Source: Slackia sp.
GTDB taxonomy: Bacteria; Actinomycetota; Coriobacteriia; Coriobacteriales; Eggerthellaceae
DNA length: 64,000 bases
Assembly: GCA_030525985.1 (NCBI GenBank)
Contig: JAUNDR010000003.1
Coordinates: forward strand, 1 to 64,000
Direction of reading: 5' to 3'
Shown one piece after another: positions 2,683-61,668 of this stretch. How positions within the stretch are numbered: the stretch's first letter is position 1; each line of letters starts with the position of its first letter. The position numbers and the translations under genes were made by a program. Below the pieces are notes generated by a model that saw only the letters and a list, made by a program, of their open reading frames with translations, was not told the origin of the DNA and made no database searches.

Positions 2683-4848
2683 CTACGTCCAGAACTGGAA
2701 CGTCTCCAAAAGCGCCTGATGGGCCCACGGATACGCATCGCTCCACCAGCCCGATTCCGCCGTCAGGCAGAGCAGGGCCGTATAGGCCAGGCCGACGAAC
2801 ACCGCAACGGGAAGAACGCGCAGCATCAGCGCATGAAGAGCGCTTCCGGGCGTCATATTCTCGTTCAAAACGAATATGACGAGCACCGCCGCCATCAAGA
2901 ACATGATGCTGAAATCGGCGAAATAGCGTTGCAGAATGCCCGCCACCTCCGCATCGGCGATGCCGATGACCACGCCCGATACCAGCAAGACGCCTACCAC
3001 GCCCGCAATCGTGCGCGTCTTGCGCTGCGCGATGCGCATTTTAAGCGCGATACCCGAAAACGGCAGGACCCACAAAAGCGGCAGACAGGCGAAGATGCCG
3101 CCGAACGTGGCTTCTTTCACCGTTTGGCCCAGATACGTGGTGTCGAACGGCGCCGGCTGCAGATACGGAAACACCCCCGTTGCCGCAGGAGGCTGGAAGA
3201 AGTACGCGAACAGCGCCGGCGCTATGCGCCCGACCGCCATGCCGCGCTTGGTCATGTCGTTCACCGTCAGGTTGTAATTGGCGCCGAAATCGAACAGCGA
3301 CCCGAAGCGGGCGTAGTTGTATCCCAGCACGCAGGCCAAAACCAGCACGTACGGCGCGACCAGGCATATGAACTGCCGGATGCCCGCCGCCGTCTTGATA
3401 TGGCCTTCGGTGATGAACGGGCGCCAGAACAAAGGAAACGCCAAAAAGCTCAGCATCACGATCTGCGGGCGGCATCCCACGACAAGCGCCATACACAGCG
3501 AGCCCGCGAAATACAAAAGCTCCGGACGGCGGCTCATGCGGCCCTTCATCCAGAAGTACAACCCCCACACCGAAAACGCCAAAGCGAGCATGATCGGCAG
3601 CGAGTAAAACGTCGGGAACTTCAGAAGATACATCGTGCCGCTGCATACGACCACCGCCATCTGCAAAAGCAGATACAGGCCCAGATTCACCCGCTTGAAA
3701 TGGTAGCGCGCAAAGCGGTCGAGCAGCGCCGAGATGCCGGCGATGAAGGCGGCCATCGCTATGAGTACGCCGATCGCCGTGGGGAAATTCGCCCCAGTAG
3801 CCAGATAGAACGGCAGATAGAACAGCAGCACGGGCACCACGCCGAAATACACGTAGTAATGGCCGTCGTAATACGCCACATCCCACAGATAGTTCTCGCC
3901 GGTCTCTTTCACCAGCTGATCGCGGGCGCCGCGGTCGTAGGGGTCTTCCATATTCTGGAGCCAGTTGGGCGGTTCCTCTTCGAGATAGAGCTTGCCGTGC
4001 GCCATGCTTTTGGCAAGCTCGGCGTATTGCTGCGCATTGTCGCCGCCCACCTCGAAGGTGTTCGCCAAGCTCACGCCGTCCCACGAACCCGCGTTGTACG
4101 ACGAAGTGGCAACGCCCACGAGATTCGAGCCCATGAACAAAAACGACGAGCACAGCCACACTTCAACTGCCACGATGCCGATGGCGGCGATCTTCGAACG
4201 ATGGGGATGCTGCTTGATGGAAATGCGATACAGGCCGGAACGAGGGCGGAACGCATACGCGAACGTCATCACGGCAAGCGCCGCCATAAAGCGCATCATG
4301 GAGAACGCGAACGGCTCGGGCGCATTGATCGAAACGCCGTCGAGATACAGCGGATACACCGTATCGTCTCCGCCGATTTCGATGCGCAGCTTGCCGATCT
4401 CGCCCGACGAATTCAGATTGAGATACTCGCTTTCGTCGCAGTTGGTGGCGATATTCGTCACGGGAACGCCCGAGGTGTATTCAGTATCGTCGAAATACGT
4501 CGAATGGGCATCGTCGGTGAACCATAGCTTCACCGGAACGTTTTGCGCCCCCTGATTCCAGCTGAAATCGAGCCGCACATTATGCACGGGCACGCCCAAA
4601 TGCTCGAATTCGATATCGTTATCCACGGATGATATGCGAAAACGGCCGTCGGCGGCCTCGGGCAGATCAATCCGCGAATCGAGCGTCACGGTTTGCCACG
4701 TCAGACTGCGCCAATGATTGAAGTTGAACACCGCCGTCTCAAGCACGACGGCAAGCGACACGATGATGCACGCCGCTTTGAAAAAACGGCGTATTTCCGA
4801 ATGGTGGGTGGCCGCGAATTCCCGCAGCAATGTCATGAATGCACGCAT
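2683..4848 (-). CDS. large polytopic membrane protein, GT-C-like (paralogue of the gene at 49997)
   Basis: 721 residues from ATG 4848. One N-terminal membrane helix (about 20-40) is followed by a soluble beta-rich region to about residue 170 and then roughly a dozen membrane segments. Conserved features shared with the second copy in this window are the stretch around ENPYD/MEDPYD before YFGVxPxLLxYLPxYLATG, the motif NYARFGSxFDFGAN and NDMTxRG. The architecture of a charged periplasmic loop after the first membrane pair and many helices recalls GT-C lipid-linked-sugar glycosyltransferases, but no catalytic motif is certain, so the function remains unassigned. No ribosome site precedes any of the candidate ATGs (4857, 4848, 4836). 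A TATAAT at 4856-4861 would put the mRNA start at about 4849, so the message may be leaderless. Confidence 0.8.
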   Translation of the reverse strand: MRAFMTLLREFAATHHSEIRRFFKAACIIVSLAVVLETAVFNFNHWRSLTWQTVTLDSRIDLPEAADGRFRISSVDNDIEFEHLGVPVHNVRLDFSWNQGAQNVPVKLWFTDDAHSTYFDDTEYTSGVPVTNIATNCDESEYLNLNSSGEIGKLRIEIGGDDTVYPLYLDGVSINAPEPFAFSMMRFMAALAVMTFAYAFRPRSGLYRISIKQHPHRSKIAAIGIVAVEVWLCSSFLFMGSNLVGVATSSYNAGSWDGVSLANTFEVGGDNAQQYAELAKSMAHGKLYLEEEPPNWLQNMEDPYDRGARDQLVKETGENYLWDVAYYDGHYYVYFGVVPVLLFYLPFYLATGANFPTAIGVLIAMAAFIAGISALLDRFARYHFKRVNLGLYLLLQMAVVVCSGTMYLLKFPTFYSLPIMLALAFSVWGLYFWMKGRMSRRPELLYFAGSLCMALVVGCRPQIVMLSFLAFPLFWRPFITEGHIKTAAGIRQFICLVAPYVLVLACVLGYNYARFGSLFDFGANYNLTVNDMTKRGMAVGRIAPALFAYFFQPPAATGVFPYLQPAPFDTTYLGQTVKEATFGGIFACLPLLWVLPFSGIALKMRIAQRKTRTIAGVVGVLLVSGVVIGIADAEVAGILQRYFADFSIMFLMAAVLVIFVLNENMTPGSALHALMLRVLPVAVFVGLAYTALLCLTAESGWWSDAYPWAHQALLETFQFWT

Positions 4849-48746: not shown

Positions 48747-49841
48747 TTAACCCTTTATCTCGAGCTTTTCGATCTCTTCACTCAAAGCATCAACGATACC
48801 GCCCTCGTCCACCTTGCGCAAGACTTTTCCCTTCGCGAAGATGACGCCCGAGCCGGCGCCGCACGCCACGCCCAGATCGGCGTCGGCGGCCTCGCCGGGG
48901 CCGTTTACCACGCAGCCCATGACGGCCACTTTGATGGGGGCCGTGCAACGAGCCAGCCGCTCGTCGACGCGCTTCGCCAGGTCGATCAGGTCCACCTGGC
49001 AGCGTCCGCAGGTGGGACAGCTGATGATTTCGGGGCCGCGGCGGCGCAAATCGAGCGCCGAGAGCAACATCCAGCATGCACGCACCTCGGCGGCAGGCTC
49101 GTCGGTCAACGAGATGCGCATGGTGTCGCCGATGCCTTCTTCGAGAAGAATGCCCAGGCCGCTGGCCGATTTCACCACGCCTTGCAGAAGCGTTCCCGCT
49201 TCGGTCACGCCGATATGCAACGGCACGCGGGGAATCTCGCGCGCGAGGATGCGATAGGTCTCCACCGTGGTCATGACGTCGTGCGCCTTCGCCGAAGCCA
49301 CCACGTCGTAAAAGCCGCGCTCTTCGAAATGCGCGACGTATTCCTGCACCGATGCCGCCAGCTTTTCGGGAAGCGTGAGATCGGTGCGCGCCTTGAGCGC
49401 CTCGTCGAGCGAGCCGGCATTCACGCCGATGCGGATGGGGATGCCGGCTTCGCGCGCGGCTTCGATCACCGAATCGGTCTTTTCCCAACCGCCGATGTTG
49501 CCCGGATTGATACGCAGTTTCGCAGCGCCGCGGCGGGCGGCCTCGATGGCGATCTGCGCATCGAAATGGATGTCCGCCACCACGGGAATCGGGCTTTTCG
49601 CACACACTTCCTCGAAAGCGTCCAGGCAAGCGCGGCGCGGAATGGCCATGCGCACTACCTCGCAGCCCGCTTCGACAAGCGCGTCGATCTGGGCGAGGTT
49701 GGCCGCCGCATCATCGGCGGGCGCGTTGAGCATCGACTGCACCACGCACGGCGCGCCGCCGCCCATGGGCACATCGCCCACCATCACGCGGTGCGTGAGC
49801 GTGTTCGGCTTGGGCGCTCGCCCGCTCGCATTGTTCGTCAT
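48747..49841 (-). CDS. ispG: 4-hydroxy-3-methylbut-2-en-1-yl diphosphate synthase
   Basis: Penultimate MEP-pathway enzyme, [4Fe-4S]-dependent. 364 residues, the two-domain bacterial form. GDVPMGGGAPCVVQSMLN near the N-terminus, ADIHFDAQIAIEAA, KLRINPGNIG, and cluster cysteines in SCPTCGRCQVDL with the third later in VMGCVVNGPGEA. AAAGGGG precedes ATG 49841. Coupled with proS, the remains of the dxr-rseP-ispG-proS order. Confidence 0.98.
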   Translation of the reverse strand: MTNNASGRAPKPNTLTHRVMVGDVPMGGGAPCVVQSMLNAPADDAAANLAQIDALVEAGCEVVRMAIPRRACLDAFEEVCAKSPIPVVADIHFDAQIAIEAARRGAAKLRINPGNIGGWEKTDSVIEAAREAGIPIRIGVNAGSLDEALKARTDLTLPEKLAASVQEYVAHFEERGFYDVVASAKAHDVMTTVETYRILAREIPRVPLHIGVTEAGTLLQGVVKSASGLGILLEEGIGDTMRISLTDEPAAEVRACWMLLSALDLRRRGPEIISCPTCGRCQVDLIDLAKRVDERLARCTAPIKVAVMGCVVNGPGEAADADLGVACGAGSGVIFAKGKVLRKVDEGGIVDALSEEIEKLEIKG

Positions 49842-49996: not shown

Positions 49997-51903
49997 TCAG
50001 TAGACAGGGGAAAACGCCGCATAGGAGAACTGAAGAACAACCGATAGCGCAAGAAGCGCTGCCATCGAAACACGAGTAAATCTTTCAGCCCTTCCTGTAT
50101 TTTCACACCGAGAAAAGAGTGCGACCTGAACGAGAACGACCGGAAGCGCCAAGAAGAAACCGAAGTCGCTGAAATAACGCACAAGCACGCCCGCCCCCAT
50201 TCCATCAAAAACAATAAGAACAAGAGCGACTAACATAGAAACAATACCCAAGCACCTGACCAGCGCATTTTTCACGAAGGACTTCGAACAGACAAACGCT
50301 CCCACAACTAAAACGGGCGTCATGGATAGAATGCCTCCAGGCAGCCCCTGAGTAATCATGTTCCCCAAAGACCACGACTGCGGCATTCCGAGATTAACGT
50401 ATGGAAGCGACGAGCTTATAGATAGAGGAAAAACAAGATAGTAGTAGAGGGATTCGATTGACTGAACAAGCGAAAAGCCGCGATGCGTCATATCGTTGGT
50501 GGTAAGATTGCAATTGGCGCCGAAATCGAACGGAGAGCCGAAGCGTGCATAATTGTAGTATCCGACAAGCATAGCAACTGCAAGAAGCGGGACGAACACA
50601 GCAAGCGTCTTCATCCCACGACCCGCTCCCCTTTTAAGAGCCTCAACGAAAAGCAGCAATCCGAATATGCTCACAAGAAATAACTGCGGTCGGCATGCAA
50701 GCGTAAGCGATGCGAATAACGTGCCGAGGGCGGCTTGCGAAGTTTTTATTTTTTTACCCTTTGTCGACAATATCCAGCACGCCAAAGCGAAAAACACGCA
50801 CACAAGCCCCGTTACAATCGGTACGGAATAAAGATTCGCATGACGAATTCGAAAAACTCCCCATGTTCCTACTAGCAAAACGACATAGCCGAAAAGATAC
50901 GAACCCCAAGAAATGCGAGGAAACCATCGTTTCGCAATAGCACTCATCAATGCGATGCTTCCCGCAATTAAAAGCAAAAGCGAAATGAAAACGGCCCACT
51001 CGTTAAGAAATTCCCCTCCTGTCGCAAGATACCAAGGAAGATAATAAAGAAGGCACGGCAACACTCCGAAATAGCAGTAGTAGCTCCCTTCGAAATAAGC
51101 GTAATCCCAGAAATACGGAACCGCTCCTATTTCCCTGGCGGCCGTGTCGTAAGGATTTTTCATAGAAGCAAGCTCAGGAGAAACAGGCAAATCAAGGGCG
51201 ACATTCCCCTGTGAGAGCGCTTTTGCGAGCTCGAAATACTCATGATTCTGAAACGAATCATAAACGGCAACCTGCGCATTATAGGGAAACGCAAAGAAAA
51301 GAAGCGATATAAGAAGCGGAATAGCTGCAGCAGCCCATAACACAACATAAACCAGTGCGCCTCCTTTAAACGGGCGCAAAAGAAAAGAGCAAGCCCTGCC
51401 TCCCCACACGGAAAGAATAGCAATTCCGAGCATGATTATTGCCAACCGCTTCACGGACATATCGAACGGTATAGCAACGTTAACGCTTATCGATGCGAAG
51501 TCCTGCACTGCGCTTTCGTCACATGGCGCTTCGACAATAAGCGAGTCCGCTTTGCCCGCCAAATCGACAAGCGCATAACCCGATTGGGAATTTTGCGAAT
51601 CGGAAGCAATCTCTCCTATTTTGTAAGGATGTCCATTTCCCTCATCGGTCGCGTAGAGAGTAACCCCCCCCCGCATGGCGGAACAAGAACGCTTCGTATC
51701 TCGGAATCGGGAATCTCAAAAAACGAGCGAACGGTACCAGCCTCAACGTCATACGATACCTCAGAAGAATAAAGCTCGGATTCGCTCGCAAACAAAGTTG
51801 CAACACTCGGAAGATTGAACAGCACCAATTCGACAATCAGCGCACCGAAAACGACCGCGATCGCCCTCCGTAAAAACCAATGCGCATCAGCCGTCAAAGT
51901 CAT
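49997..51903 (-). pseudogene. large membrane protein interrupted at a run of nine G (phase-off or broken), GT-C-like
   Basis: Paralogue of the gene at 2683-4848: an N-terminal membrane helix, an extracellular beta region, then about twelve membrane segments with NPYDTAAREIG, YFGVLPCLLYYLPWYLATG and NYARFGSPFDFGAN. Frame 1 runs from ATG 51903 (MTLTADAHWFLRR; GGGGG seven bases upstream) through SVLVPPC into a run of nine G at 51664-51672 and then stops at 51616. The body of the protein is in another frame that continues from the same G run (RGGVTLYATDEGN) to the stop at 49997. Ten or seven G would restore one frame of about 635 residues. The region 50000-51900 is much lower in GC than its flanks. 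Either a phase-variable gene in the off state, a sequencing slip, or a dead gene. Confidence 0.75.
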
Positions 51904-52483: not shown

Positions 52484-55063
52484 CTATTTTCCCTTCTTCT
52501 TATGATTGACGGCCGCGTCGTTGCGGGCGTCCTGGTTTTGGTCGGTCGACGTCTGCGTCGCCTCGCCCGCAACCTGCTCGGCACCGGCGCCGGCAGCGAC
52601 GGGCGCGGCGGAGCTTGCAGCGACAGGAAGCTTATTCAGGAAGAAGCGCTGCACCTCGACGCCGTATTTCTTCTGCAGCTTGGAAAACTTCGGCTCGCGC
52701 GTCTTCCAAATGGCGTAAAGCGGCGTGGCGATTGCGATCGACGAATAGCAGCCCGTCACCAGGCCGATGGTCATCGCCAGGGCGAAGTCCTTCAGCGTTT
52801 CGCCGCCGAACAGCAGCATGGCCACAACCGGGATAAGCGACGTGATCGACGTGTTAAGCGAACGGATGAGCACCTCGTTGACCGAATGGTTCGCCATGCT
52901 CATGAACGTGCATTTCACCGAATCGGACTTCATGTTCTCGTTGATGCGATGGAACACGACCACCGTGTCGTAGAGGGAGTAGCCCAGAATGGTGAGCAAC
53001 GCCGCAATGGTGTTCGGCGTGACCTCATGTCCCAGAATGGCGTATACGCCGAAAACGATCACCAGGTCGTGCAGCAGCGCGACCACCGCGGTGACGCCCA
53101 TCTTGTAGTCGCGGAAACGCACCGAAATATACGCGATGATCAGCACGAGTGACACGACGAACGCCAGAATGGAGCTTTGGATGACCGAAGCGCCCCAGTC
53201 GGGACCGATCGTGGTCACCTCGAAGCTGTCCGTCGACCAGCCGAACGTATCGGCCACCTGATTGGCAACCGATGTGGCGTCTTCCGCCGACGTGGAGGCG
53301 GTGCGCACGAGGAAGCCCTCCTCGCCGTCGGTCGTCGTGGTTTGGACGACCGCATCTCCCTCGCCTGCATCGGCGAACGCATCGCGCACCTGCTCGATCG
53401 GCACGTCGCCCGTGCCGTGGAAGGAGATGGAGGTGCCGCCGACGAATTCGATGCCGAAATTGATGCCGCGCACGCCCACGACCACGACGATCAACGCCAT
53501 GACCACGCATGCCGCGGTCAGGAAGTATTTACGCAGGCCCAGGATGTCGAAATCGCGCTTGATGAAGCGGCCGCGCAGCTTCTCACCCTTGGCAAGCTCT
53601 TTCTCACCATCGAAATACGGCGCCGCCTTCTGCGAGTCGGAGATGCCCCAGAAGCCGGGGTGCTTCGCGATGGCGCGCGGCGCGAGCAAACGAATCAACG
53701 GCGCCTTGAACAGCAGCATCATCGCGATGTCGCACAGAATGCCAAGCGCGAGCGTCAAACCGAAGCCCTTGACCGAAGCACTCGCCAGGAAAAACAGCGT
53801 CAACGCAGAAACGAGCGTCACCAAGTCGGCGTCGATCGACGTCATGATGCCGTGGCGGACGCCGGTCTTCGAAGCCGCACGGACGCTGCGGCCCATGCGG
53901 ATCTCTTCGCGGAAACGCTCGAGCGTCAGAATGGACGAGTCGGCCGCCATGCCGATGGTCAGCACGATGCCGGCGATGCCCGCCAAAGACAGGCTGAACA
54001 GTCCGAAATGCGAAAGCGCCGCAAGAATGCCGAGGTACAGCGCCGCGAACACCGCCATGGCAGCGGCGGTAATCAGGCCCAGGCCCTTGTAGAAGACCAG
54101 CAGGTACAGCATGACCAGGGCAAGACCGATACCCGCGACCAGCACGCCCGAAGCGAGCGCATCCTGGCCCAAGGTGGGACCGACCGTCTGGCTCTGGGCG
54201 AACTCGAAGCTCACCGGAAGCGAGCCCGACTCGAGCACGGTCTGCATGCTTTTCGCCTCGTCCAGCGTGTATCCGCCCGTGATGGAAACGTCGCCGTTGG
54301 GAATTTCGCCCTGCACGGCGGGAGCAGACTGCACCACGCCGTCCAAGATGATGACGATTTTGCCCTTGGTGGGAGCAAGCTCCTTCGTAGCCTGGGCAAA
54401 CGCCTTCGCTCCTTCGCCATCGAGCTTAAGGTTGACGGCGTAATCGGTAGCCGCCTCGGTGGCCTGACCCACCGTGACGTTCTGGATATCGTCGCCCGTG
54501 ACGATCGGCGTGTAGGTGCCTTCTTCGACATTCATCGTGAGCTCTTGCTCGCCCGTGGGGAAGCGATTGCCCATCGCATCGGTGACGCTTTGCTGCTCTA
54601 TATACTGGCCGCTCTCGATCTTCGTGCGCACCGCCTCGTCGGTAAACGAATCGAGGCGCGCGAATTCCAGCTTGCCGGTTTTTCCGATCGTCGCAAGCGC
54701 GTCTTCGGTATCGGACAAACCGGGAATCTGCACCAGAATCTGGTCGGCGCTCTGCAGGGCGACCGTCGCCTCCGACGCACCGAGCGAATTCACGCGGCTT
54801 TCGATGATGGCGCGCGACTTCTCCATATCCTCGGCGGAAACGGCAGAGCCGTCATCGCCCTTCGCGGTCAGAACCACCGACAGACCACCCTGGATGTCGA
54901 GGCCCTGATTGATCTTTTCTTGCGGAGGCGTGAACATGAACACCGAACCGACGACAAGCAGCGTGGTGACGATAAGCAGCCACACATTGCGACGGTTCAC
55001 GTGTTGAGATGTTTTCCTCCGCTTCTTCGATGCGCTCGAAGAGCTGGAATTGGAAGGCTTCAT
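52484..55063 (-). CDS. secDF: SecD-SecF fusion protein
   Basis: 859 residues. Uses proton motive force to pull exported proteins after SecYEG. Charged Ser/Lys/Arg-rich N-terminus, TM1 (about 27-46), SecD P1 region starting GLDIQGGLSVVL with the SecD motif LEFARLD, four to five further helices with GIAGIVLTIGMAADSSIL, then a basic linker and the SecF half from IKRDFDILGLRKYF (about 505) with GINFGIEFVGGTSISF and LTILGYSLYDTVVVFHR. ATG 55063 follows GGGAG. The C-terminal tail after about 810 is Ala/Gln-rich. Fusion of SecD and SecF into one chain occurs in several Gram-positive lineages. Confidence 0.96.
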   Translation of the reverse strand: MKPSNSSSSSASKKRRKTSQHVNRRNVWLLIVTTLLVVGSVFMFTPPQEKINQGLDIQGGLSVVLTAKGDDGSAVSAEDMEKSRAIIESRVNSLGASEATVALQSADQILVQIPGLSDTEDALATIGKTGKLEFARLDSFTDEAVRTKIESGQYIEQQSVTDAMGNRFPTGEQELTMNVEEGTYTPIVTGDDIQNVTVGQATEAATDYAVNLKLDGEGAKAFAQATKELAPTKGKIVIILDGVVQSAPAVQGEIPNGDVSITGGYTLDEAKSMQTVLESGSLPVSFEFAQSQTVGPTLGQDALASGVLVAGIGLALVMLYLLVFYKGLGLITAAAMAVFAALYLGILAALSHFGLFSLSLAGIAGIVLTIGMAADSSILTLERFREEIRMGRSVRAASKTGVRHGIMTSIDADLVTLVSALTLFFLASASVKGFGLTLALGILCDIAMMLLFKAPLIRLLAPRAIAKHPGFWGISDSQKAAPYFDGEKELAKGEKLRGRFIKRDFDILGLRKYFLTAACVVMALIVVVVGVRGINFGIEFVGGTSISFHGTGDVPIEQVRDAFADAGEGDAVVQTTTTDGEEGFLVRTASTSAEDATSVANQVADTFGWSTDSFEVTTIGPDWGASVIQSSILAFVVSLVLIIAYISVRFRDYKMGVTAVVALLHDLVIVFGVYAILGHEVTPNTIAALLTILGYSLYDTVVVFHRINENMKSDSVKCTFMSMANHSVNEVLIRSLNTSITSLIPVVAMLLFGGETLKDFALAMTIGLVTGCYSSIAIATPLYAIWKTREPKFSKLQKKYGVEVQRFFLNKLPVAASSAAPVAAGAGAEQVAGEATQTSTDQNQDARNDAAVNHKKKGK

Positions 55064-58910: not shown

Positions 58911-61668
<2,758 letters not shown>

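Follow-up and report, generated by a model that had tools for sequence, protein, structure and literature searches.

Glycosyltransferases are among the members of the poly-G/C phasomes of Campylobacter and Neisseria. Two accounts of these contingency loci (PMC6321876, PMC5953494) present a phasome as a group of genes for surface structures and glycans, in which every gene has a G or C run of its own. In Bifidobacterium breve UCC2003, the pilus genes bbr_0113 and bbr_1889 contain G-tracts directly behind the secretion signal, and changes in the length of these tracts turn on the pili (Penno et al., 2022; PMC9187656). A general survey of homopolymers at the 5' ends of genes found an enrichment of poly-A/T, but in general none of poly-G/C (Orsi et al., 2010; PMC2831843). 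Here, we describe a membrane protein gene of a Slackia sp. whose reading frame is broken at a run of nine G. The explanation that we consider best, with a probability of roughly 0.8, is that the gene is phase-variable through slipped-strand mispairing at this run.

The window, that is the whole 64,000-nucleotide stretch of DNA that was analysed, belongs to contig C4 of a genome of 1.93 Mb (G000). The neighbours of the target gene are named from their sequences, and we take them to be ispG and secDF. The features needed for what follows are these:

51664..51672, minus strand: G9 homopolymer (C9 on the plus strand), the proposed slip site and the frame break
51616..51903, minus strand: upstream ORF, first transmembrane helix (TM1) and start of an extracytoplasmic beta region, a 95-aa stub as the putative OFF-state product
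49997..51676, minus strand: downstream open frame of 559 aa, the remaining beta region and a predicted 12-helix GT-C glycosyltransferase-like body
48747..49841, minus strand: presumed ispG, which also adjoins the orthologue in another Slackia genome (G002)
52484..55063, minus strand: presumed secDF, the neighbour on the other side, likewise in G002
2683..4848, minus strand: intact distant paralogue, which has no G tract and is the copy retained throughout the family

The coding strand around the run reads CCG CCA TGC GGGGGGGGG TTA CTC, with the nine G at 51664-51672. The upstream ORF starts at the ATG at 51903, which is preceded by AAAGGGGGAATGGGG, a Shine-Dalgarno-like sequence at normal spacing (AGGGGG, 7 nt 5' of the ATG); it encodes one transmembrane helix and then part of the beta region, runs into the G9 and meets a stop at 51616. 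The downstream frame, from 51676 to 49997, comprises 559 codons without a stop up to its natural end, and no Shine-Dalgarno sequence was found before its first ATG. The two frames coincide only if the run has 3n+1 G. The first-pass annotation had placed the frame break exactly at the nine-G run on the coding strand and had stated that ten or seven G would restore a joint frame; both statements were borne out. In the family alignment, the N-terminal helix comes from the upstream piece, which carries the conserved E-x-[FL]-x-F-N motif of the family at the end of TM1, and everything after it comes from the downstream piece. Both halves belong to one family by this alignment, with the length of the run apparently setting whether the frame is full-length or truncated, and judged in this way the upstream and downstream ORFs are one gene, not two. 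Over its ~640 codons we found no other lesion, neither a stop nor a further frame break.

The gene at 2683-4848 had been put forward as an intact homologue along the whole length of the joined protein. Homology was indeed found for the body (29% identity over 554 columns, E 2e-58), while the upstream piece, though it has the family motif, gave no match to this gene in pairwise BLAST. As a comparison gene it is a homologue, but a distant paralogue (33% identity), and a far closer relative (65% identity) is present in another Slackia species. Intact relatives of the target are present in many genomes of the family.

To predict the structure of the protein, we used a 30-sequence family alignment as input for AlphaFold2, and the resulting model has a pLDDT of 83 and a pTM of 0.85. 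GT-C members head both fold searches of the PDB: the leading Foldseek match is ArnT (E 3.4e-5, TM 0.38) and the best VIA-align match is ALG12 (Z 17.7, 337 residues, rmsd 4.8 A), with further VIA-align matches to Pmt, OST, AftB/D and other GT-C members. The 12-helix body is therefore predicted to have the GT-C glycosyltransferase fold. The family alignment contains conserved acidic residues, e.g. D177 and D191 in A1, among which there may be candidates for the catalytic Asp/Glu that GT-C enzymes have in their first extracellular loop. At the level of sequence, 2 of the 30 relatives match NCBIfam NF047440 (LA_3751/LA_3752 putative glycosyltransferase; best E 2e-6). The target protein itself (P0001) matched no curated GT-C family, a Pfam search with P0001 returned no family, and the family profile matched none of the sequences in the PDB. 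The fold searches refine an earlier description of the product as a surface-type membrane protein: the body is predicted to be GT-C glycosyltransferase-like. With such a fold, switching would probably affect a glycan of the cell surface and not an adhesin.

A close relative of the target was found in only one of the 11 other Slackia genomes, the MAG S30M_St_16 (G002), so that the gene is present in 2 of 12; a scan of genome contigs for further relatives returned the same orthologue only, and a search of viral contigs with the flanks gave no match. The G002 orthologue is likewise flanked by secDF and ispG. It has a G9 run of its own, at which its frame is also broken, located just after TM1 and about 38 codons upstream of the site of the run in the target. 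Each species has ordinary sequence at the position of the other's run, and the two G9 runs are therefore of independent origin. As in the target, no second lesion was found in the G002 orthologue, neither a stop nor another frame break. Between the two bodies, pN is 0.22 and pS 0.76, and the differences by codon position (0.29/0.17/0.59) fall mostly at third positions. By these measures the gene is under strong purifying selection between both species, which does not fit a plain pseudogene. A gene long broken in both lineages would look otherwise, and a gene that is ON in part of the population would fit.

We also examined the surroundings of nearly all listed G/C runs of at least 9 in the twelve Slackia genomes (for G004, one run only). 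Many of these runs fall between genes. Some nineteen are found in the first ~165 codons of a gene; it is the coding strand that carries the G, except in one orthologous pair, where the tract is poly-C. These N-terminal runs in surface genes are 9-11 long, some in frame and some out. The tally and the gene starts rest on inspection by eye, aided by a simple home-made gene finder, which served as a guide only and misses the target gene because of its atypical composition. The genome of the target contributes the following:

Contig C5, 49760 (L006): SLH+DUF285 surface protein, G10, in frame
Contig C32, 32193 (L010): BspA-type LRR protein, G10, out of frame
Contig C33, 7066 (L013): TetR-family regulator, G9, out of frame
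Contig C4: target gene, G9, out of frame

In the other Slackia genomes, the tract genes encode proteins with Listeria-Bacteroides repeats (List_Bact/LRR_5), signal-peptide proteins, a pectate-lyase-like adhesive domain, an LPXTG anchor, a VWA domain, ChW repeats, a LytR-CpsA-Psr enzyme and a DUF6020 membrane protein. Most of the Slackia tract genes have surface functions.

A simple excess of poly-G was considered as evidence and rejected. The window is depleted in runs of at least 6 (4 observed vs 23 expected), yet contains one of 9, dinucleotide shuffling of the whole window revealed no poly-G excess, and the genome as a whole has about ten runs of at least 9, near expectation. The case therefore rests on the position of the runs and on comparison, not on counts. 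In a gene of the target's composition, about 0.007 runs of at least nine G are expected on the coding strand, and the chance of two independent runs in orthologues is near 5e-5. Of the coding tracts, which number about 25, 19 are placed in the N-terminal part; against an approximate null of 40%, a rough binomial estimate is 3e-4. The comparison of Slackia with three other genera (19/94 vs 2/47, p 0.012) is likewise rough and points to an only moderate difference. Among runs of at least 8, 10 of 15 reach at least 9 (24% expected).

Several other G runs are recorded here as observations in their own right. Many runs of G9-G13 lie 40-250 nt upstream of genes with G on the sense strand and are possible promoter or leader tracts (for example L094, L101, L116, L123, L140 and L157 in Slackia, and L239 and L240 in G016). 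In genus g4 (G014), L248 and L267 are in-frame G10 runs early in a DltA-like AMP-binding enzyme and in a GDSL esterase with an N-terminal helix, and a stretch of ~100 bases in the same genome (C1 225277-225380) consists mostly of long G runs. At L129 (G009 C1 1763458 and 1763870), two G tracts ~400 nt apart lie in one long tail-protein-like frame without a Pfam match. G021 has 354 G10 match starts. In G001, G005, G014 and G016, the strand of the G runs changes in blocks along contiguous chromosomes, or is the same throughout, perhaps following the direction of replication. Within the window, 60199-60600 is a GC-rich intergenic region with a G8 run and near-repeats (GCCCGCCCTCGCCTG.GTTTCGGCGA), upstream of a tgt-like gene.

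Where a tract is conserved between species, its phase can differ. The tract in the TetR-family gene is G9 and out of frame in G000, and G10 and in frame in G005 (82% identity); none was found in the TetR orthologues examined from other genera. In the gene of one signal-peptide protein, the tract is C10 and out of frame in G002, and C9 and in frame in G006, between the same flanks; in the gene of another such protein, it is G9 and in frame in both of these genomes. Such phase differences, read from assembled sequences of one genome per species, are what a length switch predicts, here between species rather than within one. Out-of-frame tract genes are concentrated in fragmented genomes (9 of 11 vs 0 of 7 in the contiguous genomes G005-G008, leaving out one more out-of-frame case, the LytR-CpsA-Psr gene of G003), and this excess may stem from wrongly called lengths in the assembly of metagenomes, or from selection during culture. 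It suits the possibility that the G9 of the target is an error of sequencing or assembly, the true run being in frame in all cells and the gene simply intact. Poly-G is difficult to sequence, and Penno et al. (PMC9187656) warn that tract lengths in databases can be wrong. An error would account for the number nine, but not for the placement of tracts in the N-terminal parts of surface genes, for the double origin of the run in this gene or for the retention of runs between species, and even a miscalled run would remain a slippery tract. We consider this explanation unlikely.

The tract might instead be of fixed length, with transcriptional slippage or ribosomal frameshifting at the G9 giving both products at a set ratio. 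RNA polymerase can slip on runs of nine identical bases, and both orthologous copies of the target gene (2/2) have nine G. The other tract genes, however, vary in length and phase between species, as predicted for a switch at the level of DNA, and the comparable G-tracts of B. breve vary at that level (PMC9187656); we regard slippage as somewhat less probable still than an assembly error. The GC content of the target gene is 48%, against about 65% for ispG, and this low value suggests that the gene was horizontally acquired. That it is a plain pseudogene, with a frameshift in a decaying acquired gene, would suit this composition and its presence in so few Slackia genomes, but is the least probable of the three given ~640 codons free of other lesions in either species, the strong purifying selection and the independent G9 in both.

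The candidate phase-variable gene named in the first-pass annotation is thus supported by the independent G9 in the orthologue, by purifying selection, by the N-terminal tracts in surface genes and by the phase differences between species. In the mechanism that we propose for this phase variation, the G9 run would gain or lose one G by slipped-strand mispairing during replication. At 3n+1 G, one membrane protein would be made, consisting of TM1, the extracytoplasmic beta domain and the GT-C body. Judging by its predicted fold, the body is a probable sugar transferase that uses a polyprenyl-phosphate carrier as donor and a surface glycan or protein as acceptor. At other lengths, including the nine of the assembly, translation would end soon after the run and leave only the 95-aa stub. 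The target would be one of a set of Slackia surface genes switched by poly-G or poly-C, so that members of one clone may carry different surfaces. That the gene switches in the cells of one strain and that its product is an active enzyme are inferences, as is the benefit, which would be phage or immune escape, or altered adhesion. Somewhat more tentatively, we favour the view that a poly-G phasome extends across the genus Slackia, and perhaps to related Eggerthellaceae. It would randomise a TetR regulator, proteins of the surface and enzymes that act on surface glycans (GT-C, LytR-CpsA-Psr ligase, DUF6020), and one gene could acquire its tract more than once, each time at a separate position.

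If the tracts switch, each clone of Slackia, a genus that is common in the gut and mouth but has received little study, could have many surface states, with consequences for phage escape, immune recognition and colonisation. Annotation pipelines would label tract genes as pseudogenes or split them in two, and surface functions in this group may therefore be undercounted. The repeated gain of a G-tract in one glycosyltransferase gene is also a natural test of how contingency loci originate.

Our search returned no report on phase variation in Slackia, Eggerthella or Coriobacteriia, subscription papers being mostly outside it. Switching by poly-G/C is well known in pathogens and in Bifidobacterium, and as far as we found, the novelty lies in its occurrence in this genus, in the repertoire that is apparent there and in a glycosyltransferase as the target. 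The predicted fold of the downstream body is that of the GT-C glycosyltransferases (ArnT, PglB/AglB, Pmt, ALG12, AftB/D), from which the target differs by an extra N-terminal transmembrane helix and a beta domain and by the lack of a Pfam or PDB sequence match; its likeness to the LA_3751/LA_3752 family runs through the two relatives noted above (best E 2e-6). Like the tracts of Orsi et al., those of Slackia lie early in the frame, where a slip abolishes the product, but they are poly-G. Campylobacter and Neisseria are Gram-negatives in which many switches have been proven, whereas each genome of the high-GC, Gram-positive genus Slackia has few tracts, all of them candidates. The closest known kind appears to be the pilus G-tracts of B. 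breve, like Slackia a commensal gut actinobacterium: in both, a G run follows an N-terminal secretion signal, a short well-initiated ORF precedes a long ORF without a Shine-Dalgarno sequence, and run length would decide between ON and OFF. For B. breve, detailed accounts cover only pilus loci, and there the lengths were measured and shown to vary, whereas in Slackia variation is deduced from comparison and the tracts lie in a membrane glycosyltransferase gene, in other surface genes and in a regulator. The target is a polytopic protein encoded between secDF and ispG, not an LPXTG sortase-dependent pilin in a pilus cluster; by analogy, it would work like the B. breve switch without being such a locus.
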